A stretch of DNA of 64,000 nucleotides from contig DASXOZ010000072.1 in assembly GCA_036493895.1 (NCBI GenBank), positions 1 through 64,000 of the forward strand, in the 5' to 3' direction. A program made the translations under genes and the position numbers. The stretch's first letter is position 1, and every line of letters starts with the position of its first letter. The stretch comes from Candidatus Binatia bacterium (GTDB lineage Bacteria > Desulfobacterota > Binatia > UBA1149 > CAITLU01). The notes below the pieces were generated by a model. It saw only the letters and a program-made list of their open reading frames with translations. It was not told where the DNA came from and did no database searches. Shown here in pieces: positions 50,331-63,486 of this stretch.

Positions 50331-51407
50331 TCAGCTCCTGGCAGCAAGTCGCGCGGTACGGATGCGCGCGATCTCCGCAGCAAGGTGTTTCTCGAAATAC
50401 GCGTCGCAGCCCAGGCAGACGTTCTCCATCTCGCGGCCTCGAGGATCGACGGCGCGCGACGAGCGCCGGTAATCGGAGCGCGACCAGCCGACGTTCTCTC
50501 CCATCGATTCGGGGTCTCCTGCGTTGATCGCTTCGAATGCCGGATGACCCTTGAGGCTGTCGAGGATCTCGACCAGTCGTTCCTCGCAAAGATTTCCGAG
50601 CGGAGCCTTGGTTTTCAGGCAGCACGGATAGACCGACCCGTCCGGTTCGATCGCGACCTCCGCGCCCGCATCGCCATAGTTCAGGAAGTTCTTGCCGCCA
50701 CTCCAGCGCGCGCAGAAATTGGTTTCGTACGTGGCGTTGGACAATCCGTTCGTCCACGCGCGTCCGCGCGGCCACAGCTCGCCGATCCACAGCTCCGGCT
50801 GGGCGCCGAAGAACAGGAAGAACGGACCGTCGCCGCTTCTTGCGCGCCCGAGTCCCGGACCCTTCAGCCGCGGATCGCGCGCGATGCCGAGATCGACCTC
50901 CTGCACGCCGAAGCTCGCCATCATGCGCCGGACGCGATCCATCAGCGCGAATTTCCCGTCGCCGTTCATGCCGACGTGATAGTCGTCGATGCTCGCGACC
51001 GCGATGGTGCCGACGCCGCGCTCGAGCATCTCTTCGATGTGTCCGGGTTGCATGATGTCGCCCGTCGTCTGGATCGAGACGTGCGGCGCCGCCGCGCCCC
51101 ATCGCGCACGGATCGCGTCGAGCAGCGGGTAGAAGAGCTCCTGGCGGACGCCGTCCATCAGCACTTCGCCGCCGGCCAGGATGAGCGAGGAGCGGTGCCG
51201 TGACGCAGTGCCGCCGGGCCCCGGGCGCGACGGGTCCTGGTACGACATGTCGTCGGGGAGGTTGGCCAGAATGCGGCGGTACGCGTGGCTTTCTTCGGCG
51301 ACGAGGCGCGTCAGGTCGTCGCGAGCGTAAGGCCGGAAGCGGTCGTCGTAGCAGTGCCTGCACTTTCGATGGCAGGCCCAGGTGATGACCCAGTAGATCG
51401 ATTCCAC
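50331..51407 (-). CDS. Radical SAM protein with SPASM-like Cys-rich C-terminus
   Basis: Encodes 358 residues. The N-terminus begins almost at once with the radical SAM cluster CHRKCRHC (C12, C16, C19), then LILAGGEVLMDG (GGE motif) and HVSIQTTGD. The C-terminal third has YPCCLKTKAPLGNL and ENVCLGCDAYF, a SPASM-like auxiliary-cluster pattern that typically follows peptide- or sugar-modifying radical enzymes. The substrate is unknown and no small precursor peptide gene is visible beside it. Its neighbours are envelope glycan-type genes and htrA. Confidence 0.8.
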   Translation of the reverse strand: MESIYWVITWACHRKCRHCYDDRFRPYARDDLTRLVAEESHAYRRILANLPDDMSYQDPSRPGPGGTASRHRSSLILAGGEVLMDGVRQELFYPLLDAIRARWGAAAPHVSIQTTGDIMQPGHIEEMLERGVGTIAVASIDDYHVGMNGDGKFALMDRVRRMMASFGVQEVDLGIARDPRLKGPGLGRARSGDGPFFLFFGAQPELWIGELWPRGRAWTNGLSNATYETNFCARWSGGKNFLNYGDAGAEVAIEPDGSVYPCCLKTKAPLGNLCEERLVEILDSLKGHPAFEAINAGDPESMGENVGWSRSDYRRSSRAVDPRGREMENVCLGCDAYFEKHLAAEIARIRTARLAARS

Positions 51408-51461: not shown

Positions 51462-52976
51462 CTACGGCTGGATGACGACGAACGCCGACATTCCCTCGCG
51501 ATTGACCAGCAGCACGACCTGCTGGTTGCCGGCTTCCTTCATTCGCCGCGTGTAGTCGGCCACCGACGTGACCTGCTGGCGGTTGACCTGCTCGATCACG
51601 TCCCCGCGCCGCAGCCCGGCGTCGGCTGCCGGTGTTTCATCCTCGACGTCGGTGACGATCACGCCCTTGACGTCCGCCTTGATGCCGAGGTGACCGCGAA
51701 TGTCGCGGCTGAGGTCCTCGACCTCGACGCCCTGCAGGACGCCGGCGTTCCTGCCCGACTGCGGCTGCGCATTGCCCGGCCCATTCCCGGCAGGCGCTTC
51801 ACCGAGGGTCACTGCAACGTCGCGCGATTGGCCTTCATGATTGACGGTCAGGCGCACTCGCGTTCCGGGCGCCATGTTGCCGACACGCAGCCGAAGGTCG
51901 TTCGGTCCGGTGAGGATCGTGCCGTCGAGCGCGGTGATCACGTCGCCGCGCTCGAGCCCCGCCCTGGCGCCCGGACTGTCGGCGGCGACGCCGCCGACGA
52001 GCGCTCCGGTCTCCGCGGGAATCTTGAAGGCTGCGGCAAGATCGGGTGTCACTTCCTGGATTCCGACGCCGAGATAGCCGCGCACGACCTTGCCGCGCTT
52101 GATGATCTCGGACATCACGTACTTGGCCATGTTGATCGGGATCGCGAACCCGATGCCCTGGTTTCCTCCGGTTGCGCCCGAAAGAATCGCGGTATTCACA
52201 CCGACCAGCTCGCCTGCGGCATTCAGAAGCGGACCGCCGGAGTTGCCGGGATTGATCGCCGCGTCGGTCTGGATGAAGTCCTCGTAGTCTTCGATGTCGA
52301 GGCCATTGCGGCCGGTCGCGCTGATGATGCCCATCGTCGCCGTTTCGCCGACTCCGAACGGATTGCCGACGGCGAACGCGTAGTCGCCGACCTGGAGCTT
52401 CGACGAATCCCCGAGCGTCGCAGTGGGAAGCCCGCTCGCGGGAATCTTGACGACGGCGATGTCCGTCGCCTTGTCCGCTCCCACGACTTTTCCCGTGAAC
52501 TGCCGCTTGTCGGCCAGCGTGATCTTGATGTCGGATGCCTCGTCGACGACGTGGTCGTTCGTGAGGATGTAACCGTCGGGGCTCACGACCACTCCCGAGC
52601 CGAGACTCGACTGGCGCTGCTGCCGCGGCGTTTCGCGGCCACCACGTCCGTGCGGCTGCCCGCCGAAGAACTGCTGGAAGAACGGGTTGACCATCTGCAT
52701 CTCGGGCACCTTGACGATCTGCGATGTCGTGATGCTGACGACGGCGGGCAGCGCGTGGCGAAAGACGGAAGCGAACCCCATCGAGCCCGGGGCCGGCGCA
52801 TCCGCGGACGCGCGGCTCTGGAAGGACACGTACATCGGTACGGGGCGCTCGGGCTCGAACGGCGGATGACCGATCCATGTTGCGGCCAGCGCACCCAGCA
52901 GCGTGCCGGCGGCAACGCCGACGGTACCAGACGAAAGCGCGAATGACGTTCGCGTCGAGCTCGCGAAGGCTCTCAT
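51462..52976 (-). CDS. degP: Periplasmic serine protease DegP/HtrA family
   Basis: Encodes 504 residues with an N-terminal hydrophobic segment (residues 13-35) as signal or anchor. The trypsin-like triad is complete: H142 (LTNDHVV), D172 (ATDIAVVK) and S246 (NPGNSGGPL). Two PDZ domains follow (GYLGVGIQEV ... GVAADSPGARAGLERGDVI and GVIVTDVEDETPAADAGLRRGDVI). It acts in envelope protein quality control under heat or redox stress. AGAGAGG precedes the ATG. Length and domains are standard. Confidence 0.95.
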   Translation of the reverse strand: MRAFASSTRTSFALSSGTVGVAAGTLLGALAATWIGHPPFEPERPVPMYVSFQSRASADAPAPGSMGFASVFRHALPAVVSITTSQIVKVPEMQMVNPFFQQFFGGQPHGRGGRETPRQQRQSSLGSGVVVSPDGYILTNDHVVDEASDIKITLADKRQFTGKVVGADKATDIAVVKIPASGLPTATLGDSSKLQVGDYAFAVGNPFGVGETATMGIISATGRNGLDIEDYEDFIQTDAAINPGNSGGPLLNAAGELVGVNTAILSGATGGNQGIGFAIPINMAKYVMSEIIKRGKVVRGYLGVGIQEVTPDLAAAFKIPAETGALVGGVAADSPGARAGLERGDVITALDGTILTGPNDLRLRVGNMAPGTRVRLTVNHEGQSRDVAVTLGEAPAGNGPGNAQPQSGRNAGVLQGVEVEDLSRDIRGHLGIKADVKGVIVTDVEDETPAADAGLRRGDVIEQVNRQQVTSVADYTRRMKEAGNQQVVLLVNREGMSAFVVIQP

Positions 52977-53943: not shown

Positions 53944-55311
53944 CTAAGGCGCCTGTTCGTCCGCCCTGGCCACGGCCGTCTTCTTTCCCGGCTTGTCGCG
54001 ATCGTAGAACTTCTGCCGATGGCATCCCGGCGCGCAGCTTCCGCCGGTGTCGGTCTTGTTGAAATTCAGCTTCATCGTCCACTTGCCGAAAGGGATCGCG
54101 TCCTGGATCAGCTTCGGATGGTCGCTGCCGTGCACGGAGTGGCACATCAGGCAGCCGCGGCCCTTGGCGTCGTCACCGACGTGCACGGCATGGAGGTTTT
54201 TCTTCCCGTCGCGGAACCCCGTTGCGGTGGTCGTCTCGCGGTCGGTCACCATCGTGCGCTCGTGGCACGAGAAGCAGAGCGGGTAGGCCTTGTCGTTCCA
54301 CGGGTGATAGTTGCCGTCGGGAAATTCCTTGACGAGCAGGTTGTCGAGGTCGCCTCCGTGCGGCGCGTGGCAGTCGGTGCACTTGCCGTCGTGGTTCTTG
54401 CCGTGGAGGAATTTCGCGTTGGCAGGCATGTCGCCGTCGTGGCATTCGAGGCAGGTCGCCCGCATCGGCTTTTCCAGCAGCGCATCGTTGTCGCTCGCAT
54501 GCGGCGAGTGGCACAGCAGGCAGCTTTTGTCGTCGTCGAGCGCGCCGTGGGAGACTTTCGCGTCCTTGATCTCCTGTTCCTTGGTGTCGTGGCACGAGTA
54601 GCAGACCTTCGGGACCTTTTCGCTGAGCATCGCCGGAAACTTCGACCCGTGCGGGTCGTGGCAGGTGATGCAGCCGTCCTCGACGGGCGCGTGTACGTCC
54701 TTCTTCTTGATCTCGTCGGCCTTCTCGGTGTGGCAGTCGAAGCAGAGCGCGTTGCCTTCCTTGACCAGCAGCGACTTGGTGTCGGTCTCGTGGGGGTTGT
54801 GGCACTCGGTGCAGTCGCCGTCTTCGACTGGCCCGTGCAGCTTCGGACCTTCGTACGGCGCGTCGTGACAGTCCTTGCAGAGCTTGCCGACGGGCTTGAT
54901 CAGCAGCTTTTCCTCCGCGGTCGAGTGCGGGTTGTGGCAGTCCGTGCAGCTTCCGTCCTGCACCGGGGAGTGCACGGTCTTCTTCTTGCCGAACGTGTCG
55001 TGGCACGTGTAGCAGAGGTCCGGCACGTCGTTCAGCAGCTTGAACGTCTTCTTTCCCTTGGCCGGATGCGGCGTCGATACCGACTCGTGGCAGTCGGTGC
55101 AGCCTTCGGCCGGGTCATGGACGTTCTTCTTCGAAAGGATGTCGACGTGGCACTTCGACGTGACGCAGCCGCCGGCTTTCGTCTCGTCGGAGGACGCCGG
55201 ATGAGCAGCGGCAGTCTTCGCATCCGGCGCTTCGGCCGCGACGGCGCCGGGCAGCGGCATCGCAACGAACGCAGCGGCCGCCAGCACCGCGATGAGGAAC
55301 GTCTTCTTCAC
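53944..55311 (-). CDS. Secreted multiheme cytochrome c (~15 heme motifs)
   Basis: Encodes 455 residues from GTG at 55311, overlapping the stop of the upstream cytochrome as GTGA. Signal peptide FLIAVLAAAAFVAMPLPGAVA. There are 13 CXXCH motifs, mostly in paired repeats of the form CTDCHNPH / C..CH (doubled-CXXCH type). A CX4CH (55147-55167) and a CX3CH (54019-54036) give up to 15 hemes. High heme density and short linkers suggest an extended wire-like electron carrier in the periplasm or outside the cell. Last gene of the conduit operon. No lipobox. Confidence 0.88.
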   Translation of the reverse strand: MKKTFLIAVLAAAAFVAMPLPGAVAAEAPDAKTAAAHPASSDETKAGGCVTSKCHVDILSKKNVHDPAEGCTDCHESVSTPHPAKGKKTFKLLNDVPDLCYTCHDTFGKKKTVHSPVQDGSCTDCHNPHSTAEEKLLIKPVGKLCKDCHDAPYEGPKLHGPVEDGDCTECHNPHETDTKSLLVKEGNALCFDCHTEKADEIKKKDVHAPVEDGCITCHDPHGSKFPAMLSEKVPKVCYSCHDTKEQEIKDAKVSHGALDDDKSCLLCHSPHASDNDALLEKPMRATCLECHDGDMPANAKFLHGKNHDGKCTDCHAPHGGDLDNLLVKEFPDGNYHPWNDKAYPLCFSCHERTMVTDRETTTATGFRDGKKNLHAVHVGDDAKGRGCLMCHSVHGSDHPKLIQDAIPFGKWTMKLNFNKTDTGGSCAPGCHRQKFYDRDKPGKKTAVARADEQAP

Positions 55312-57182
55312 GGGTAGGCCGCTCCATCGTGGACGACGCCGTGGCAGACGAGGTCGCAGCTTCCGGCGAACGTTCCCTTGTCGGTGAATACCGGCGCTGC
55401 CGCGCCCGGCTTCGGTGCGACGATGCTGGTGTCGAAATTGATCAGGTGCGTGTGCGATCCGGTCGCACCAGCCAGCGGCGAGCCGGTGCTTTCGATGCCG
55501 TGTGCATCGTGGCAGGCCGAACAGGGTGCGCCGGCTTCCAGGTGGCCGCGGTGTCCGGCGCCTCGAGCATGGCCGTTTCGTGCCGCTCCGGGTCGGAAGC
55601 TGCGGTCGGAAAGGATGCTCTGGCGATCGTGGCAGCGGTAACAGAGCGCGTAGTTCTCGGAGCTCTCGACGGTCATGTCGGCGGTCTCGTAGCGCTCGCG
55701 CAGGATCGGCTTCCACATGGACCCGTGCGGACCCCGCGTCGCACCGTCGTCGTCGGCGTGGCAGCTCGTACACGTGATCATCGACGTTGCCGTCATCGAC
55801 GGCTCGAACGACGAGGGAATGCTCGGTACGTCGGGATCCCTGCCGAGCGCGAATACCGGGTGAAACGAAGCATTGGACGGATCGAACACGCGACGCAGGT
55901 TGATTCCGGGAACGACGCGCGGCGTGCGCAGCAGCGCAGGCGAATTGTCGCCGTGGCACTTGAGGCACACTTCGTACGAGTAGCGGACGCTGGAGACGGT
56001 AATGCCGTTGCGGTCCACCCCGGAAACGCCACGCAGTGCCCCGCCGGCAACAGTCGGGTCGTCGCCGGCAGAAACTGCTCCCTGCCCGGCAACGAGGTGA
56101 GGGTTGTGACAGTCCGTGCAGGTCACGGATCCGGGATCGCCGCCGCGTCCGCTGCGGGTTGCGGCGCGACGTTCCAGCTCGCCGGGAACCTCATGATGCG
56201 CCGACGGCTTGCCGATCGCCGCAGCGATGTCGATACCGCCCGAAACGGAGGCTCTCGCCGACACGCCGCGCGCACCCGCGGCGGTGCGCGCGACGAGATG
56301 GGCAGGCCCGCTCGGATCGGTGCTGTGGCAGCCGCTCGTCGTGCACGAAAACGGAGCGGGCGGCAGGTCGGTGAAGTTCAGCAGTCCGGCGGGCGTCGGC
56401 GCAAAATGCGGAGTGTGGCAGGTCTCGCATCCCCATTCGGCCAGCGTCGGATAGTTCGGCCACGTCTTTGGCGGCCGCGGAAGGATGCCGACGACGGACG
56501 CGGGCGACGTCGCGTGCGCCGAGCCGGGCCATCCCTGGATCTGGTGACACGTGGTGCACAGCGCCGAGTAGCGGTTGTCCTTCAGCAGGAAATCTCCGAA
56601 CTGGTTGTTGTGCGGATCGTGGCACGTCGTGCAGTGCACTTCGTCGCTGCCGCCGAACACGAGGCCCGGCGGCGGCTGCTCGACCAGCTCGGGGTTCGGC
56701 AATGCGGCCTGGTACGAGAACGAAACAGGGTGGTGGGCGGAAAGATCCAGCCCGAAGTTGGAAAGGCTGTCGGGAGCAAAAATGTCGGCGCCTGCCATCG
56801 TGATTCCGGTCGACGGATTGACGACGGAACCCATCGCGATCGTGCCGTCGTGGCAGCTCAGGCACAGCTTGGTGGGACCGAACGGCTGCGGCAGCGGAGC
56901 CGCGTGCAGCGTCGGGCTCGTATAGACGGTGTAGACCTGCCCCGGCAGCTCCTTGTTCCACAGCGGCGTCAGCGGCGTCGAGTTGTGCGGCGTGTGGCAG
57001 AAGATGCAGATGCGCGACTCGCTGGCCGCGCGGATCTGGCCGGTGCCGGACACCGACAGGTTGTGCGGGGTGTTGCGGATGTCCTCGGTTGTCTGCGCGA
57101 GCGCCGGGCCGCACAAGGCGACGAGAGCCGCGACCGTCGCAGCACGCACGATGCTTGCGCTTTCAGGACGCCGCGGCGGCAT
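55308..57182 (-). CDS. Secreted multiheme cytochrome c (~12 heme motifs)
   Basis: Encodes 624 residues from ATG at 57182 (GGAGG, 6-nt spacing), overlapping the NHL gene by 20 nt. The signal peptide ends ALA|QTTEDI. Ten CXXCH motifs include CIFCHTPHNS, CLSCHDG, CTTCHDPHN, CETCHTPHF, CTDCHNPH and CSACHDAHG, plus a CX4CH (56325-56345) and a CX3CH (55341-55358). Larger spacing and many Pro/Ser loops suggest a globular extracellular or outer-surface terminal reductase or wire subunit. Repeated His after CXXCH (PH, HN) may supply distal heme ligands. Confidence 0.88.
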   Translation of the reverse strand: MPPRRPESASIVRAATVAALVALCGPALAQTTEDIRNTPHNLSVSGTGQIRAASESRICIFCHTPHNSTPLTPLWNKELPGQVYTVYTSPTLHAAPLPQPFGPTKLCLSCHDGTIAMGSVVNPSTGITMAGADIFAPDSLSNFGLDLSAHHPVSFSYQAALPNPELVEQPPPGLVFGGSDEVHCTTCHDPHNNQFGDFLLKDNRYSALCTTCHQIQGWPGSAHATSPASVVGILPRPPKTWPNYPTLAEWGCETCHTPHFAPTPAGLLNFTDLPPAPFSCTTSGCHSTDPSGPAHLVARTAAGARGVSARASVSGGIDIAAAIGKPSAHHEVPGELERRAATRSGRGGDPGSVTCTDCHNPHLVAGQGAVSAGDDPTVAGGALRGVSGVDRNGITVSSVRYSYEVCLKCHGDNSPALLRTPRVVPGINLRRVFDPSNASFHPVFALGRDPDVPSIPSSFEPSMTATSMITCTSCHADDDGATRGPHGSMWKPILRERYETADMTVESSENYALCYRCHDRQSILSDRSFRPGAARNGHARGAGHRGHLEAGAPCSACHDAHGIESTGSPLAGATGSHTHLINFDTSIVAPKPGAAAPVFTDKGTFAGSCDLVCHGVVHDGAAYP

Positions 57183-58329
57183 GGGAGCCCTCCACCTGGA
57201 AGAACTGGATCCGGCGATTGTAGGTATCGCAGACGGCCAGGCGTCCGCTGCCGTCGATGGCAGCGCCCGACGGAAGCCAGAACTGGCCGAAGTCGCTTCC
57301 ACGTCCGCCGAGCGTCAACAGGAAGCGGCCGCTGCGGTCGAAGAGCTGCACGTTGTCGAACATCGCGTCGACGACGTAGACGACGCCGTCGCGATCGACG
57401 GCGATGCCTTTGGGCATCGCGAAATCGCCGGAGGCGTCGCCGTGGTGCCCGAATCCGCCTGCGACCGAGCCGTCGGGCGCGAAGATCACGATGCGGAAGT
57501 TGAGCGAGTCGGCCACGTACAGCGAGCCGTCGGGACCTTCGGCGATGCGCGTAGGGTAGTTCAGCTCGCCCGGCCCCGAGCCGCGGCGACCGAACGTCTG
57601 CAGCAACGAGCCGTCGCCGCCGGTCGCGAACACGGCATGTGCAAGAGTGTCGACGACGTAGAGACGGTGCGTGGCGCGGCTCCACGCGAGCCCGGTCGGG
57701 CGCTGCAGCGTGTGGTCGCCGATGCTGCGGCTCGCGGCGAGGAACTTGCCGGAAGCATCGAACGAGAACAGCGCGCCGCTGGAATCGGAAACCCAAAGCC
57801 GGCCGCCGTCATCGAATGCGACGTCGACCGGCGACTGCAGGTGCTCGCGCTCACTGCCCGTCAGGCGCACGTAAGCCGAGGAGGAGGACTTGCCGCCCGT
57901 GTCGGCGGCCAGCAGGTGCACGCAGCGGCAGCCGGTATCGGCCACCGCGATGCGGCCGTCGGCGGAAATGGACATTGCCACGGGCAGTACGAAAGAATCG
58001 TCGCCGGAGCGGGTGCCGAACGCCAGCGCTCCGAGGACGGTAGCGGCGTTGGCATCGCGCACGACGCCGGAGAGCGCGTGCAGGTAGCGGATTCGCGCTT
58101 GCTGCGGCGGCGCCGGCCACTGCAGCGGCACCGTCGGTGTCTTCGTCGTCGGAGTCCAGCTCGACTGGCAACCGGCAACGACGATCATGCCCGCGGCGGC
58201 GGCAAGCACGGCGAGCAGCGTGCCCGCCGTGCGGGCGCGAAGTTCGCGAAGCGGCGCTCCGGACGGGAACGGTCCCGGCGTGCCGCCTTGCGGCCGTTTG
58301 CCCGACATCCTGTTCACGCTCGCATCCAT
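57163..58329 (-). CDS. NHL beta-propeller lipoprotein
   Basis: Encodes 388 residues. A basic N-terminus precedes a hydrophobic segment ending VVAGC (lipobox). From residue ~85 on there are about six NHL-type blades, each with a pattern like GPDGSLYVADSLNFRIVIF / AVDRDGVVYVVDAMFDNVQLF. It begins 2 nt after the beta-barrel stop and overlaps the 12-heme gene, so it is part of one operon. NHL proteins occur next to multiheme cytochromes in metal-reducing deltaproteobacteria; a scaffold role for the conduit is inferred. Confidence 0.82.
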   Translation of the reverse strand: MDASVNRMSGKRPQGGTPGPFPSGAPLRELRARTAGTLLAVLAAAAGMIVVAGCQSSWTPTTKTPTVPLQWPAPPQQARIRYLHALSGVVRDANAATVLGALAFGTRSGDDSFVLPVAMSISADGRIAVADTGCRCVHLLAADTGGKSSSSAYVRLTGSEREHLQSPVDVAFDDGGRLWVSDSSGALFSFDASGKFLAASRSIGDHTLQRPTGLAWSRATHRLYVVDTLAHAVFATGGDGSLLQTFGRRGSGPGELNYPTRIAEGPDGSLYVADSLNFRIVIFAPDGSVAGGFGHHGDASGDFAMPKGIAVDRDGVVYVVDAMFDNVQLFDRSGRFLLTLGGRGSDFGQFWLPSGAAIDGSGRLAVCDTYNRRIQFFQVEGSHAAAAS

Positions 58330-58330
58330 T

Positions 58331-60433
58331 TCACAGAAGCTGCCGCTTGATGTTGATCGAGATCAACTCGTGGTCGCGCCGGAAACTCTCGGGCAGCGAC
58401 GATGGCGGGGCGGTCGACACGACGCCGGTATGGCTGTCGGAGCCGTAGGCGGTGGCCGTCAGGCTGAGATCGAGCTTGCCGATATGCCAGATGATCGAGG
58501 AATTGGCCGACCACGCGTTGCTGTCGGTCAGTCCCGAGATGTTCGAGTAGGAACCGCCGATGGCCAGCACGAGATTGCGGCTGAAGAGCTGCTTGGTGAT
58601 CGTGCCCGAGACCGTGATGATTCTTTCGTAGTACCGCGGCGTCGTGTAGGGCGCCTCTCCTCCGAGGAAGTGACGGTCGAGGAATGTCGCCGTCGTGTAC
58701 GTCGTGATCGTGCGGGTGATCGGGCCCACGTACTGCAGCTCGGCGCGCCACGCGTCGTACGGATTGCTCGCCCATTCCAGGCGCTGGTACTCGCCGCGGG
58801 CGCGCACGGGGCCGTACAGCAGGCGCACTCCGGTGGAATAACTGTCGGAGTCGATCGGGGTGCCCGGATAGACGCCGCTCAGCACGCTGGAGCGCACGGC
58901 GGTGTAGCGAAAATACGGCGTCACGAGCTGGTTGAACAGCTCGACGCTGGCACTGCCGGTGCCGTCGTCGGTCTGCAGCTCGTACTCGCCGGTGCTCTGC
59001 GAGTAGCTGAGGTAGAAATCGTAGCTGCCGGGTACGACGAATTCGACGGGCAGCGAGAGGATCTGGACCTCGAACGGCTCGACCAGCGTGTTGACGAAAT
59101 AATGGACGCCCTCCACCAGCTGGATCGTCTCGAACGGAGGGATCGGCGAACGCAGCAGCACGACGATCGACGAGGGATCGACGTCCGTGCGCCGCAGCGT
59201 GAACGTTCCCGGCACCGCGGTGCCCGTGTAAGGGTCGGCCACGACGTCGGTCATGCCGTGGTTGTCGAAATCGCTGCGCTCGAAGCTGCCGCCGACGAGC
59301 ACGCGCCCGTGCGGGACCTGCTTCGTGTACTGGACGTCCACGCCGTTCGACAGCTCGGTGGAGTTGCCTCCGCTGGTGTCGTGCACGTCGCGAAGGAAGC
59401 GGTAGGTGGTGTCGACGCTTTCGTAGAGCCGGTTGACGACGTCGAACCGCGCGCTGTTGCCGTCGTCGGAATAGTGGCGGTCCGGCAGCGTGATGGGACC
59501 TGGGTTGGCGATGTCGCTGGTGTCGTCGTGCATCCGCCATTCGAGGTCGGTGCGGAAGTTCCACGGCAGGTACAGCGAGAACAGCTCCCACCACGCAAGC
59601 TGCTTGGTGTCGTAGCTGTTCTGGTTGTCCTGCTTCTGGTCGAAGGTGTTGTCGGAGAAGTTCGACGACAGCGTCGCTTTCTTCAGGTCGATCACGTTGC
59701 CGACCAGTGATTCGAGGGAGCTGCCGTCCAGTCCGTTGGAGTCGGTGTACCACGACGGGTGGACCGAGCCGTTGAACGTGAGCTGCCGGCCGCTCTCCCA
59801 GCGCTTGAAGTACTCGCCGTCGACGAGCACGCGCTGGACGTCCGAGTTGCTGCCGGTCGTGTTCATCTGCGAATCGAGGAAGCCGGCATCGAAGAACCAC
59901 GGTTTGCGCCGATAACGAAGGCTCACCCCGTAGTCGTCGGCGACGTTGTTGTGCGACGCCGCAGCCTGCTGCGGATACACGGGCTCGTAGCGCGTGGCGA
60001 ACGTGAGGAGGTTGTACGGATGATCCGGCAGCAGCGTCACGCGCGCGTCGTATTCGAGGCCTTCGCCGATGTCCCATCCCGTCGAGCCGAGGACCGAGCT
60101 GTCGTAACGCTCCTGCTTGACGGCGCCGCCGAGCGACAGCCGGTAGCGAAGAAAGCGCGGGTCGTACGAATAGCCTTCGGTCGACAGCGTGAGCTTCTCG
60201 CGGATGAACGCGTCGTTCCAGGTGCTGTTCGGCGAGATGCCGTGGCTGTCGTCGTTTTCCCACGAGGCGAACGTCTCGAACCACGCGTGGTTCTCGATCG
60301 AGTGCGGCGCGAACAGGCTCCAGTCCCATTGCGCGAACGCGTCGCGAGGCGTGGCGGCGAGCAGCGCGCACGCTGTCGCTGCGGCGAGCGCGGCGACGGC
60401 AGGACGGCGTATCCTGTCGCGCGCCCGCGTCAT
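58331..60433 (-). CDS. Outer-membrane beta-barrel of the cytochrome conduit
   Basis: Encodes 700 residues with a signal peptide ending AFA|QWDW. The mature part has alternating amphipathic strands throughout (FLRYRLSLGGAVKQE, YGVSLRYRRKPWFFDAGFLD, DLSLTATAYGSDS) and ends in a typical C-terminal strand (SINIKRQLL). Large barrels of this type encase cytochromes in porin-cytochrome conduits. The start overlaps the pentaheme lipoprotein stop as ATGA, supporting joint assembly. No CXXCH motif. Sequence similarity to MtrB or Geobacter barrels cannot be judged here. Confidence 0.82.
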   Translation of the reverse strand: MTRARDRIRRPAVAALAAATACALLAATPRDAFAQWDWSLFAPHSIENHAWFETFASWENDDSHGISPNSTWNDAFIREKLTLSTEGYSYDPRFLRYRLSLGGAVKQERYDSSVLGSTGWDIGEGLEYDARVTLLPDHPYNLLTFATRYEPVYPQQAAASHNNVADDYGVSLRYRRKPWFFDAGFLDSQMNTTGSNSDVQRVLVDGEYFKRWESGRQLTFNGSVHPSWYTDSNGLDGSSLESLVGNVIDLKKATLSSNFSDNTFDQKQDNQNSYDTKQLAWWELFSLYLPWNFRTDLEWRMHDDTSDIANPGPITLPDRHYSDDGNSARFDVVNRLYESVDTTYRFLRDVHDTSGGNSTELSNGVDVQYTKQVPHGRVLVGGSFERSDFDNHGMTDVVADPYTGTAVPGTFTLRRTDVDPSSIVVLLRSPIPPFETIQLVEGVHYFVNTLVEPFEVQILSLPVEFVVPGSYDFYLSYSQSTGEYELQTDDGTGSASVELFNQLVTPYFRYTAVRSSVLSGVYPGTPIDSDSYSTGVRLLYGPVRARGEYQRLEWASNPYDAWRAELQYVGPITRTITTYTTATFLDRHFLGGEAPYTTPRYYERIITVSGTITKQLFSRNLVLAIGGSYSNISGLTDSNAWSANSSIIWHIGKLDLSLTATAYGSDSHTGVVSTAPPSSLPESFRRDHELISINIKRQLL

Positions 60434-60960
60434 CGCAGCAGGTTCTCCTTGTCGCTCTGGTGCGGGTCATGGCAATCGGTGCAGCGCTTGTCGGCGTCGG
60501 CGTGGGCAGGCTCGTCGGCAAGAGTTTCGGCTTCGTGACAGCCGTGGCAGATGTCGTTCAGCTTGCCGGCAAGGATCCCGGGATAGGGACCGCTGTGGGG
60601 ATCATGGCAGTCGAGGCACTCGCCGGATTCGAACGGGTCGTGAAGGACCTTCTTGTCGGGCCCGAACGTGTGGCAGTTGCGGCACAGCTTGTCCTTCGGA
60701 AGCACCAGCGTGTTGGACGCGACCGACTGGTGGCACGCGCTGCAGAGCCTGGCCGCGTAGGGTCCGTGCTCGCGGTACGAAGCGCGCATCGGAACCGGCG
60801 CCGAAGCGTTCTTTGCGGCACCGGCCGGCGCCGGCGCTGCCGGCGGCGGCACGCCGTCGAAGAACGTGCTGAGGGTCCGGTAACGCGTCGCGGGATCGCA
60901 CGCCGTGCAGGCGAGCAGCAGTGCCAGCACTGCGATACCCGCGAAGCGAAACGATGCCAC
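60430..60960 (-). CDS. Pentaheme c-type cytochrome lipoprotein
   Basis: Encodes 176 residues. The signal ends LACTAC, giving two possible lipidated Cys. The segment RTLSTFFDGVPPP follows, a motif I associate with conduit-type cytochromes of deltaproteobacteria. Five CXXCH motifs: CSACH, CRNCH, CLDCH, CHGCH and CTDCH. It is the best candidate for the small periplasm-facing cytochrome that docks inside the barrel. Starts 18 nt after the upstream NHL gene. Confidence 0.88.
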   Translation of the reverse strand: MASFRFAGIAVLALLLACTACDPATRYRTLSTFFDGVPPPAAPAPAGAAKNASAPVPMRASYREHGPYAARLCSACHQSVASNTLVLPKDKLCRNCHTFGPDKKVLHDPFESGECLDCHDPHSGPYPGILAGKLNDICHGCHEAETLADEPAHADADKRCTDCHDPHQSDKENLLR

Positions 60961-60978
60961 GACGGACGCCCCGCGTCG

Positions 60979-62139
60979 CTACTTGCCGGCGGGCGCGGGT
61001 GCAGGCGCGGGTGCGGCGGCGGCCTTGGCGCGGCGTTCTTCGATCTGCCGGAGCAGATCCGCCTCCGTGGGATACTGTGCTCCTTCCTGGTGTCCGAACC
61101 CGTAGACGTTGACCCGGTGCGGCCCGAACTGGCTGGTGACGAGCACGAGATAGTCGACGTGAAATCCCGGCTGGACGTACTCGCGCAGCAGTCCCACGTC
61201 GTCGTAGTCGATCGCGACTTTGGCGGGAAGGTCGAGGTTTCCCGGTCCCTGGCCCGGGCCGCCGAAGAACGTCGCGAGATGTCCGCCGGGCATGAAGATC
61301 TGCACGTTGTTGAACGCCGCGTCGACGGCGTAGACGAGCCCGTCGCGGTCGACGGCGACGCCTTTCGGACGTGCGAAGTGCCCGAGGTTGTCGCCGAGCC
61401 GGCCGAACGCGGCGATGTACTTTCCGTCGCGGTCGAGCTTGACGACCTGGAAGCGCGCGACGTCGGTGACGTAGAGAAAGCCGCTGGTGTCGAACGCGAG
61501 GTTGGTCGGGCGCGACAGCCGTGCGTCGCCCTCCGACTTGTCACCGAAGCTGGAGACCTGGCTGCCCGAGGCGATGTCGAAGACGACGATGCGGCCGTGG
61601 TCGAAGTCCGCGACATAGAGACGGCCGCCGAATGCCGCGGCATCGACCGGCTTCCAGTCGCCAGGTTGGCCGTAGGCTCGGACGAACTGGTCACCCCGAT
61701 CGAAGGCGACGACCTGGCCGCGCACCGGATCGGTGACGTACCTGGTGCCGTCCTGGCCGATGCTGATGTTGATCGGCTGCCGCAGCGCCCCCTGGCCCGT
61801 AGCGCCGGCCAGGTAGGAGAACGTTTTCGCCTTCAGGTCGAAGACGGCGACGGTCGAATTGGTGTCGCAGGCATAGATGCGGCCGTCGGCCATCGCGACG
61901 CCGTAAGGTTTGTCGACGATGAGATCCTGCTTTTCGCCGATGACGAAGCGGTTGAAGGCCGACTGCCTCTCGATGTCCTTCAGGCCGGTGAACGACGTCA
62001 GGTACTGAATGCGCGGCAGGTCCGGCGCCGGCGGAAAGAATACCGGCGCCTGTGTCGCAGGTCTGGTTGCGCTGCAGCCCGCCAGGACCAGGGCGCCGAG
62101 GAGGCTCGCTACCAACCGACTTCGCGCTGCACAACCCAC
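60979..62139 (-). CDS. NHL beta-propeller lipoprotein (first of two)
   Basis: Encodes 386 residues from GTG at 62139, with GAGGG six nt upstream; longer frames upstream are basic and unlike a signal peptide. Signal ends LVLAGC (lipobox). NHL-type blades run through residues ~70-350: GVAMADGRIYACDTNSTVAVFDL, NLAFDTSGFLYVTDVARFQVVKL, GVAVDRDGLVYAVDAAFNNVQIF. The Ala/Pro tail (APAPAPAPAGK) may be a spacer. It resembles the second NHL protein at 57.2-58.3 kb closely in layout and both share the phrase FDNVQ/FNNVQ, so they are likely paralogues. Confidence 0.82.
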   Translation of the reverse strand: MGCAARSRLVASLLGALVLAGCSATRPATQAPVFFPPAPDLPRIQYLTSFTGLKDIERQSAFNRFVIGEKQDLIVDKPYGVAMADGRIYACDTNSTVAVFDLKAKTFSYLAGATGQGALRQPINISIGQDGTRYVTDPVRGQVVAFDRGDQFVRAYGQPGDWKPVDAAAFGGRLYVADFDHGRIVVFDIASGSQVSSFGDKSEGDARLSRPTNLAFDTSGFLYVTDVARFQVVKLDRDGKYIAAFGRLGDNLGHFARPKGVAVDRDGLVYAVDAAFNNVQIFMPGGHLATFFGGPGQGPGNLDLPAKVAIDYDDVGLLREYVQPGFHVDYLVLVTSQFGPHRVNVYGFGHQEGAQYPTEADLLRQIEERRAKAAAAPAPAPAPAGK

Positions 62140-62277
62140 GTCCGTCCCTCTCTTTCGTCCCGAGCCGCGTCGTCGCTGCGCGAGGCCTCGTGCCGGCGGT
62201 TGCCCGAAGTCGTCTGTGCCGTCGAGCCTTCGTGGCCCGGGACGCGAAACGACGCCGTTGCTTGGCGCGCCATTCAT

Positions 62278-63486
62278 CTACAGACCGGCTATCGTATCCC
62301 AGGAAGCGCAGCCGCAACCATCGCCGGCCTGTGGGCGCGGCGGCGGCTGGTAGACGCAAAGCGGGTCTTCGGCCAGCGCATCGCCGGTGGCGGCATAGGC
62401 ACGTCCGCGCGAGCCGCCGCAGACTTCGTTCCAGCAACAGACGCCGCAGCGGCCGCCGAACAACTCGGGACGGCGAAGATCGCGAAGCAATGGCGCGTTG
62501 CGATAAATGTCGAGGATGTCGCGTTCACGCACGCTTCCCGCGACGACCGGCAGGAAGCCCGACGGCATCACCTCGCCCTTCCACGACACGAACAGGATGC
62601 CGTTGCCGTCGCGCATGCCGGCTCCGGCCACGGCCGCATCGGGCCCCTGGCCCCGCATTTCGAGCATCACGCGACGGACCATCGGAGCCTCGGTTGCCGA
62701 CGTCACCAGGCCCAGATCGTGGCGCTGTGCGGCAACCCAGTGCAGCAACTCTTCGGCCTGCGCTGGTTCGATCTGCGGCAGCGAAGAGCCGCGCCCCGTG
62801 GTCACGAGGAAGAACAGGCTCCAGCGCTTTGCCTTCATGTCGCGCACGCGCTCGGCAATCGCCGGCATGTCGGCGAGCGTGTCGGCCGTGACCAGCGTAT
62901 TGACCTGCAGCGCAATGCCGGCCTCGGCGATGTGAGCGGCGGCTTTCATCGTCAGCTCGAAGCAGCCCGGAATGCCGCGAAGCGCGTCGTGGCGCGGCGG
63001 GTCCGAGCCGTCGAGGCTGAGCGACATCGCACCGACCCCGCGGCGGGCAAGCTCGAGGATGACTTCCCGCGTCAGCTTCGGCGTGGCGCTCGGCGCCACG
63101 TCGACGTGGAGGCCGAGGCTTTTCGCAAAATCGAGAATCTCCCAGAAGTCGGGCCGTTCGAGCGGATCACCACCGGTGAGCACCACGGCAGGAGTGGGAC
63201 GCGCGGTCGCAAGCGACCGCAGCACGTCGAACGCTTCCTCGGTCGACAGCTCGCCGGGCAGGCGCTGGTGCAGGGCTTCTGCCCGGCAATGCTTGCAGGC
63301 AAGCGCGCAGGCCCTGGTCAGCTCCCAGTAGACTCGCCTCGGCGCGTCATCATAGCGGCGGATCCTGCCGTCCTCGGGATGAGAGCCGGGATGACCGGTC
63401 GCCGCGGCGGCCGGTCGCGAATGACCGGTCGCAGGGGCAGCCGGTCGCAAAGGTCGAGCGGAAATGTCCGTGGTGACAGCAGTCAT
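62278..63486 (-). CDS. Radical SAM/SPASM protein (TIGR04053-like)
   Basis: Encodes 402 residues. A Pro/Ala/His-rich head (residues 1-45) precedes the radical SAM motif CALACKHC (C60, C64, C67), LTGGDPLERPDFWEIL and VDVAPSATPKLT. The SPASM tail has CGVCCWNEVCGG and further Cys. The sequence pattern fits the TIGR04053/heme-biosynthesis-like (AhbD/NirJ) group. It heads the conduit operon on the minus strand, 138 nt before the first NHL gene, which suggests a cofactor- or protein-modification role tied to the cytochromes. The target is unknown. Confidence 0.8.
   Translation of the reverse strand: MTAVTTDISARPLRPAAPATGHSRPAAAATGHPGSHPEDGRIRRYDDAPRRVYWELTRACALACKHCRAEALHQRLPGELSTEEAFDVLRSLATARPTPAVVLTGGDPLERPDFWEILDFAKSLGLHVDVAPSATPKLTREVILELARRGVGAMSLSLDGSDPPRHDALRGIPGCFELTMKAAAHIAEAGIALQVNTLVTADTLADMPAIAERVRDMKAKRWSLFFLVTTGRGSSLPQIEPAQAEELLHWVAAQRHDLGLVTSATEAPMVRRVMLEMRGQGPDAAVAGAGMRDGNGILFVSWKGEVMPSGFLPVVAGSVRERDILDIYRNAPLLRDLRRPELFGGRCGVCCWNEVCGGSRGRAYAATGDALAEDPLCVYQPPPRPQAGDGCGCASWDTIAGL

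Follow-up and report, generated by a model that had tools for sequence, protein, structure and literature searches.

Our results indicate that six genes of this locus probably encode an outer-membrane electron conduit linked to a cytochrome filament of the OmcE type. This reading builds on gene content, co-conservation, homology to OmcE that extends to the heme-ligand positions, the occurrence of one cytochrome in fused and split forms, and a predicted barrel, all of them observed or computed. The informative parts of the locus are a 12-heme cytochrome (c12), in which an OmcE-like tetraheme module is fused to an octaheme domain, and a tetraheme gene that lies outside the window, by which we mean the whole stretch of 64,000 nucleotides analysed. 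Neither had been recognised in an earlier reading of this DNA, made from the sequence only.

Organization of the locus

The window lies on contig C72 of a draft genome of 4.5 Mb, composed of 81 contigs and 98.9% complete. Reading of its open reading frames recovered all seven minus-strand genes that the sequence-only reading had placed at 53944-63486 (Table 1), and the gene cluster runs on past the window end. The conserved block comprises six genes, for NHL1, the pentaheme lipoprotein (c5), the barrel, NHL2, c12 and the 15-heme cytochrome (c15), and excludes the radical SAM gene. The starts of the c15 and NHL1 genes were corrected: the first is a GTG at 55311 and not 55968, the signal peptide beginning there and the longer frame being over-extended, and the second is probably a GTG at 62139, because a start at 62277 would make the lipobox cysteine residue 68. 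With these starts the six conduit genes are spaced by -20 to +18 bp, the start of the c15 gene overlapping the stop of the c12 gene by 4 bases and the c5 gene overlapping the start of the barrel gene by another 4. The tight packing described earlier for seven genes is a property of the six from NHL1 to c15, and not of the radical SAM gene, which is about 138 bp away from NHL1 when the latter starts at 62139. No promoter or terminator pattern was found around this gap.

Table 1. Features of the locus and two further cytochrome genes of the same genome. Positions refer to the window unless a locus or contig is named.
Feature	Position	Strand	Details
c15, 15-heme periplasmic-type cytochrome, MtrA-like	53944..55311	-	455 aa; Sec signal peptide; 15 motifs
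c12, 12-heme secreted cytochrome	55308..57182	-	624 aa; N-terminal OmcE-like tetraheme and C-terminal octaheme domain
OmcE-like domain inside c12, about residues 20-214	56541..57125	-	OmcE search of own genome; His columns
NHL2, NHL-repeat beta-propeller lipoprotein	57163..58329	-	Lipobox VAGC; PF01436, E=1.9e-26
Outer-membrane beta-barrel	58331..60433	-	700 aa; about 28 strands predicted
c5, pentaheme lipoprotein	60430..60960	-	176 aa; lipobox LLAC; PF09699, E=3.4e-21
NHL1, NHL-repeat beta-propeller lipoprotein	60979..62139 (start probable)	-	Lipobox LAGC; PF01436, E=2.8e-16; ORF open to 62277
Radical SAM/SPASM enzyme TIGR04053, neighbour gene	62278..63486	-	417.8 bits against a cut-off of 395
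7-heme protein	L010:3819-7103 (G000:C72:63818-67102)	+	1094 aa; PKD domains (two); carboxypeptidase-regulatory-like domain
Fusion of an 11-heme cytochrome and a cytochrome b561-type membrane domain	L104:9807-11801 (G000:C10)	-	

Motif counts fixed the hemes, previously given as 5, about 12 and about 15, at exactly 5, 12 and 15. c5 contains five CXXCH motifs, c12 ten CXXCH plus one CX3CH and one CX4CH, and c15 thirteen CXXCH plus one CX3CH and one CX4CH, whereas composition shuffles yielded a mean of 0.04-0.14 CXXCH per protein, with a maximum of 3, versus the 5, 10 and 13 observed. Pfam searches placed NHL repeats in each of the two lipoproteins and also identified doubled-CXXCH cytochromes and the radical SAM domain. 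Against known structures, c15 matched MtrA (chain 6r2q_A, E=6.6e-22) and c5 showed partial similarity to the same protein (E=5.5e-7). The PDB name list used in this search labels chain A of 6r2q, which is MtrA, as 'Cystathionine beta-synthase', a name that could mislead annotation.

The 12-heme cytochrome joins an OmcE module to an octaheme domain

Residues 19-214 of c12 match the OmcE filament (PDB 7TFS, E=2e-24) and also a second solved tetraheme cytochrome, 9yuq, and a profile of 36 c12 relatives matched OmcE (7tfs) with E=8.7e-50. When OmcE was used as the query against the same genome, only the c12 domain (E=4.6e-24, 39% identity) and the tetraheme gene outside the window were retrieved. 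Alignment of 49 OmcE-like sequences showed 98-100% conservation of the four motif and four distal His columns, the N-terminal one included, and the fused proteins retain this N-terminal His ligand. Judged by homology, the first 214 residues of c12 are a complete OmcE nanowire module.

In OmcE, one heme takes a His ligand from the neighbouring subunit (PMC12307469). The stand-alone tetraheme proteins end a median of 2 residues past heme 4, with 36 of 41 having no His there, and such a short tail is expected if the next subunit supplies one ligand. In c12, an invariant His, H223, lies ten residues beyond heme 4. Loci L046, L048-L052 and L078 encode the tetraheme and octaheme parts in two adjacent genes; such split genes in several genomes show the 12-heme gene to be two units fused, and on the present sequence comparison this fusion occurs in about ten phyla. 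Taken for themselves, these two-gene forms document fusion or fission of the tetraheme and octaheme modules. The octaheme part has weak profile similarity to the multiheme cytochromes 6i5b and 6qvm, and the AF2 model of c12 (36 sequences, pLDDT 56.9) was too poor for placing ligands or for a fold search.

The stand-alone OmcE-like tetraheme protein, of 342 residues, is encoded on the opposite strand past the radical SAM gene, where a 7-heme gene is followed by the tetraheme gene (L010, G000:C72:63818-68150). The same pair occupies the corresponding place in genome G002, and the 7-heme gene is also present in G001. In most Acidobacteriota loci the tetraheme gene stands directly before NHL1, a place held here by the radical SAM gene.

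Sequence does not tell whether OmcE relatives form filaments, and there is dispute over what cytochrome filaments do physiologically (PMC11077965). We weighed a credible though somewhat doubtful alternative, an ordinary Mtr-style conduit in which c15 alone threads the barrel and c12 serves as an extracellular terminal reductase or oxidase with a non-polymerising OmcE-like domain. The octaheme extension could indeed block polymerisation on one face of c12, and the weak resemblance of this part to 6i5b and 6qvm would also suit such an enzyme, but the retention of the N-terminal His ligand in the fused proteins argues against it. Further evidence on this alternative comes from the barrel and from the conservation of the locus.

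The barrel is predicted to be wide

For the barrel, AF2 (22 sequences) returned an all-beta model at a mean pLDDT of 84.5, in which 28-30 strands are at least 10 residues long and a small beta domain is inserted near residues 396-480. Its top Foldseek match was MtrB (6r2q_B, E=2.4e-8), with a low TM of 0.41-0.44, and among the matches listed this was the only one aligned along the whole barrel. With VIA-align, the comparison with MtrB gave a Z of 14.9 over 469 residues (rmsd 6.9 over 45-699), the longest alignment in the list; generic barrels, receptors and porins score a Z as high or higher over shorter ranges, so that Z alone is no proof of kinship. The barrel had no match in Pfam at E 0.01, including the MtrB/PioB family PF11854, and its sequence, used singly or as a profile, had no significant match in the PDB. 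PF11854 was matched (E=1.4e-8) by a different barrel encoded in this genome. MtrB has 26 strands, and the pore modelled here is likely wide enough for a cytochrome.

As in porin-cytochrome conduits, the locus encodes a large barrel, with about 28 strands predicted, next to multiheme cytochromes, the c5 gene overlapping and those of c12 and c15 nearby. The sequence-only reading had proposed a porin-cytochrome-like conduit, vulnerable to a pore too small for a cytochrome or to barrel homologues found consistently without cytochromes. The predicted barrel is wide, with MtrB as its best hit in Foldseek, and cytochromes recur with it, 19 of the 20 barrel-anchored Acidobacteriota loci described below carrying the same ones; the proposal is accordingly sustained. 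The match of c15 to MtrA and that of the barrel model to MtrB also speak for the ordinary Mtr-style arrangement.

The same genome contains a second, Dms/Mtr-like conduit (L103, G000:C4:2000-8309), in which a molybdopterin oxidoreductase, a ferredoxin and a Rieske protein, an unusual partner, are followed by an MtrA-like decaheme cytochrome and an MtrB/PioB barrel whose gene is truncated at the end of the contig.

Conservation of the block

The order NHL1-c5-barrel-NHL2-c12-c15 is identical in G001 and G002, of the same family, and in G091, of another family, with 44-64% identity (62-64% for NHL1). The search for the seven-gene order in other genomes, suggested by the earlier reading, returned six genes in these three genomes, whose blocks are without the radical SAM gene. 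In G002 the conduit cluster is present twice, in differing copies, L151 (G002:C13) and L007 (G002:C17).

A search anchored on c12 gave 46 loci from about ten phyla (Desulfobacterota, Nitrospirota, Planctomycetota, Bacteroidota, Pseudomonadota, Verrucomicrobiota, Acidobacteriota and others), with Thermoanaerobaculia among the relatives; 45 of them had an NHL gene and 28 a separate tetraheme gene. The second search started from the barrel; it covered 395 genomes of the phylum and matched 27, from which 20 loci were read and six further matches, two of them weak, were left out. Because the barrel profile was built from the c12-anchored loci, the second search partly depends on the first; single-sequence barrel searches likewise reached only clusters of this kind. 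As gene calling was incomplete for NHL and barrel genes in GC-rich loci, the tallies of NHL, tetraheme, fused 12-heme and radical SAM genes were redone by six-frame search.

Both the fused 12-heme gene and the separate tetraheme gene were found in 19 of the 20 barrel-anchored loci, and both shortfalls are contig ends. At least one NHL gene was present in all 20 and at least two in 19, while an isomerase was found in 2 and the radical SAM gene in none. In G001, G002 and G091, and in most barrel-anchored loci, the NHL2 gene stands directly before the 12-heme gene. With an NHL gene in 45/46 c12-anchored and 20/20 barrel-anchored loci, the NHL lipoproteins, put forward earlier as extra parts, are supported as constant ones. 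A 15-heme homologue was present in 12 of the 20 barrel-anchored loci and a pentaheme gene in 15; since neither is universal, both are only candidates for the cytochrome that fills the barrel. For the ordinary Mtr-style conduit, these counts are unfavourable: c15, which would have to thread the barrel alone, is absent near it in 8 of the 20 loci, but c12 is absent only at a contig end, and a separate tetraheme gene lies beside almost all barrel-anchored loci.

In a tree of 56 12-heme proteins the phyla were intermixed, with Acidobacteriota at several separate positions, a pattern that would be compatible with repeated transfer and is no proof of it. A divergent variant of the cluster, L009 (G006:C1374), has 12- and 13-heme c12-like proteins and a 606-aa NHL protein, and in the pentaheme position an octaheme lipoprotein with class I cytochrome c domains.

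The radical SAM gene, best read as a neighbour

The radical SAM gene belongs to TIGR04053, scoring above the NCBI cut-off, and reached 275 bits against AhbD (heme b synthase), below the NCBI cut-off of 500. TIGR04053 is near the heme-modifying AhbD and NirJ, and the gene falls under the cut-offs of both. Its position directly before NHL1 on the same strand, together with the closeness of its family to AhbD/NirJ, could suggest a functional part in the conduit, for example in heme modification or in maturation of the propeller proteins. Nevertheless, the six-frame search found it in none of the 46 c12-anchored and none of the 20 barrel-anchored loci, that is, in 0 of 66 related loci. In G004, of the same genus, a 71% identical copy lies among unrelated genes, with the conduit genes not nearby and no match to the barrel in that genome. 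These observations, to which the gap of about 138 bp to the corrected NHL1 start can be added, make such a part very improbable, and the gene, which the sequence-only reading had counted as an extra part of the system, is best read as a neighbour of the conduit.

A second, divergent radical SAM/SPASM gene (50331-51407, minus strand) lies downstream of the conduit, beside an HtrA/DegP-like protease gene (51462-52976).

Proposed electron path and its direction

From these data we infer locations, an order of transfer, filament formation, anchoring and a flow direction, as follows. Periplasmic electrons would be received by the MtrA-like c15, which together with the pentaheme lipoprotein would hand them to the barrel of about 28 strands; a heme chain would pass through the barrel, and the secreted 12-heme cytochrome would take the electrons outside. 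The OmcE-like N-terminal domain of c12 would offer the docking surface to which stand-alone tetraheme subunits add, forming a conductive filament. Its octaheme domain would be the anchor at or in the barrel; on one face it would stand in for the next filament subunit, with the other face left free for tetraheme subunits, and c12 would be the end piece of the filament. Both NHL propeller lipoproteins would act at the outer membrane, as scaffolds of the assembly or in its folding. Within this scheme we only tentatively assign c12 the role of a dedicated anchor, with the octaheme domain in or on the barrel, the OmcE-like domain as the first nanowire subunit and a continuous heme path from the periplasm. 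If this is true, the c12 anchor would be a general nanowire socket common to about ten phyla.

Direction of flow cannot be set from sequence. The 11-heme b561 fusion protein of this genome (L104, Table 1) is similar in layout to CbcL and, by that analogy, could carry electrons from the quinone pool, in keeping with outward flow. This protein speaks against an alternative that we consider unlikely, namely a distinct metal-oxidation system for electron uptake with inward flow, as proposed for Uet in Tenderiales and Gallionella. Homologues are also present in groups of Desulfobacterota and Nitrospirota where reduction or syntrophy is equally likely. The uptake reading is favoured by a part list equal to that of Uet (PMC10734462) and by two heme-copper oxidase genes in the genome, a possible electron sink that would permit inward flow.

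PMC10553843 describes the path that leads from filaments into the cell as poorly understood, and PMC12307469 lists filament assembly and secretion as unresolved. c12, which combines a nanowire module with another multiheme module in a single chain, is a direct candidate for the junction between filament and membrane; in a compact gene set, its gene is almost always accompanied by those for a barrel predicted to be wide and for a stand-alone tetraheme subunit. Presence of the cluster also makes extracellular electron exchange likely for a group of Acidobacteriota and for further uncultured phyla.

Comparison with known systems

MtrCAB (PDB 6R2Q) resembles the present system in its large barrel, the top Foldseek match, and in the partial MtrA similarity of c15 and c5. 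It differs in that the barrel described here falls outside Pfam MtrB_PioB and in that MtrCAB has neither an OmcE-octaheme fusion nor NHL lipoproteins.

The Uet clusters of Candidatus Tenderia and Gallionella contain the barrel UetC, the tetraheme UetA, the NHL proteins UetHI, an isomerase, trihemes and UetJ with 11-12 hemes (PMC10734462). Compared by part list only, they share with our locus a barrel, a tetraheme cytochrome, two NHL proteins and a large doubled-CXXCH cytochrome; the triheme cytochromes and peptidyl-prolyl isomerase of Uet are absent here, and c5 and c15 are added. No peptidyl-prolyl isomerase was found in the six-gene block, although relatives have one (L015, L017, L021, L133 and L138). 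In Aromatoleum (L033), NHL, triheme, barrel, 12-heme and tetraheme genes stand in one row that looks like the Uet layout, so by analogy UetJ may be a relative of c12.

The OmcE filament of Geobacter sulfurreducens (PDB 7TFS) shares the tetraheme module by sequence, with all eight heme-ligand His positions, but in our system the module is fused to an octaheme domain. In the omcE neighbourhoods of OmcE-bearing relatives (nearest OmcE 64% identical; Geobacter sulfurreducens itself lies outside the set), we found two genes that read as ResB/ResC-like and genes for an 11-heme (c15-like) cytochrome, an 8-heme cytochrome, an NHL protein and OmcE, and the barrel profile recognised no barrel there.

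Filament-type cytochromes are also encoded with a porin conduit in OetABI, where the two are paired (PMC10553843), and in the clusters of Candidatus Desulfofervidus and D. ferrophilus, which contain an isomerase, a pentaheme lipoprotein and a propeller (PMC8322314). Compared by description, these systems are alike in that pairing and different in their filaments, which are of the OmcS/OmcX type (PMC10553843, PMC8322314). D. ferrophilus additionally shares the pentaheme and beta-propeller lipoproteins with our locus, and its isomerase has no counterpart in the six-gene block.

The suggestion that the locus may define a distinct type of system is thus only partly upheld: NHL proteins, an isomerase, a barrel and an OmcE-like tetraheme have already been described together in Uet and in Desulfofervidus/D. 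ferrophilus, and what sets this system apart is the OmcE-octaheme fusion. The fusion, as a common hallmark connected with this barrel, was not found in the literature searched, which covered Uet, OmcE and D. ferrophilus through papers later than their primary descriptions. On our best reading, this is a Uet/Oet/OmcE-linked type of outer-membrane conduit whose fusion protein joins a tetraheme filament to the porin.
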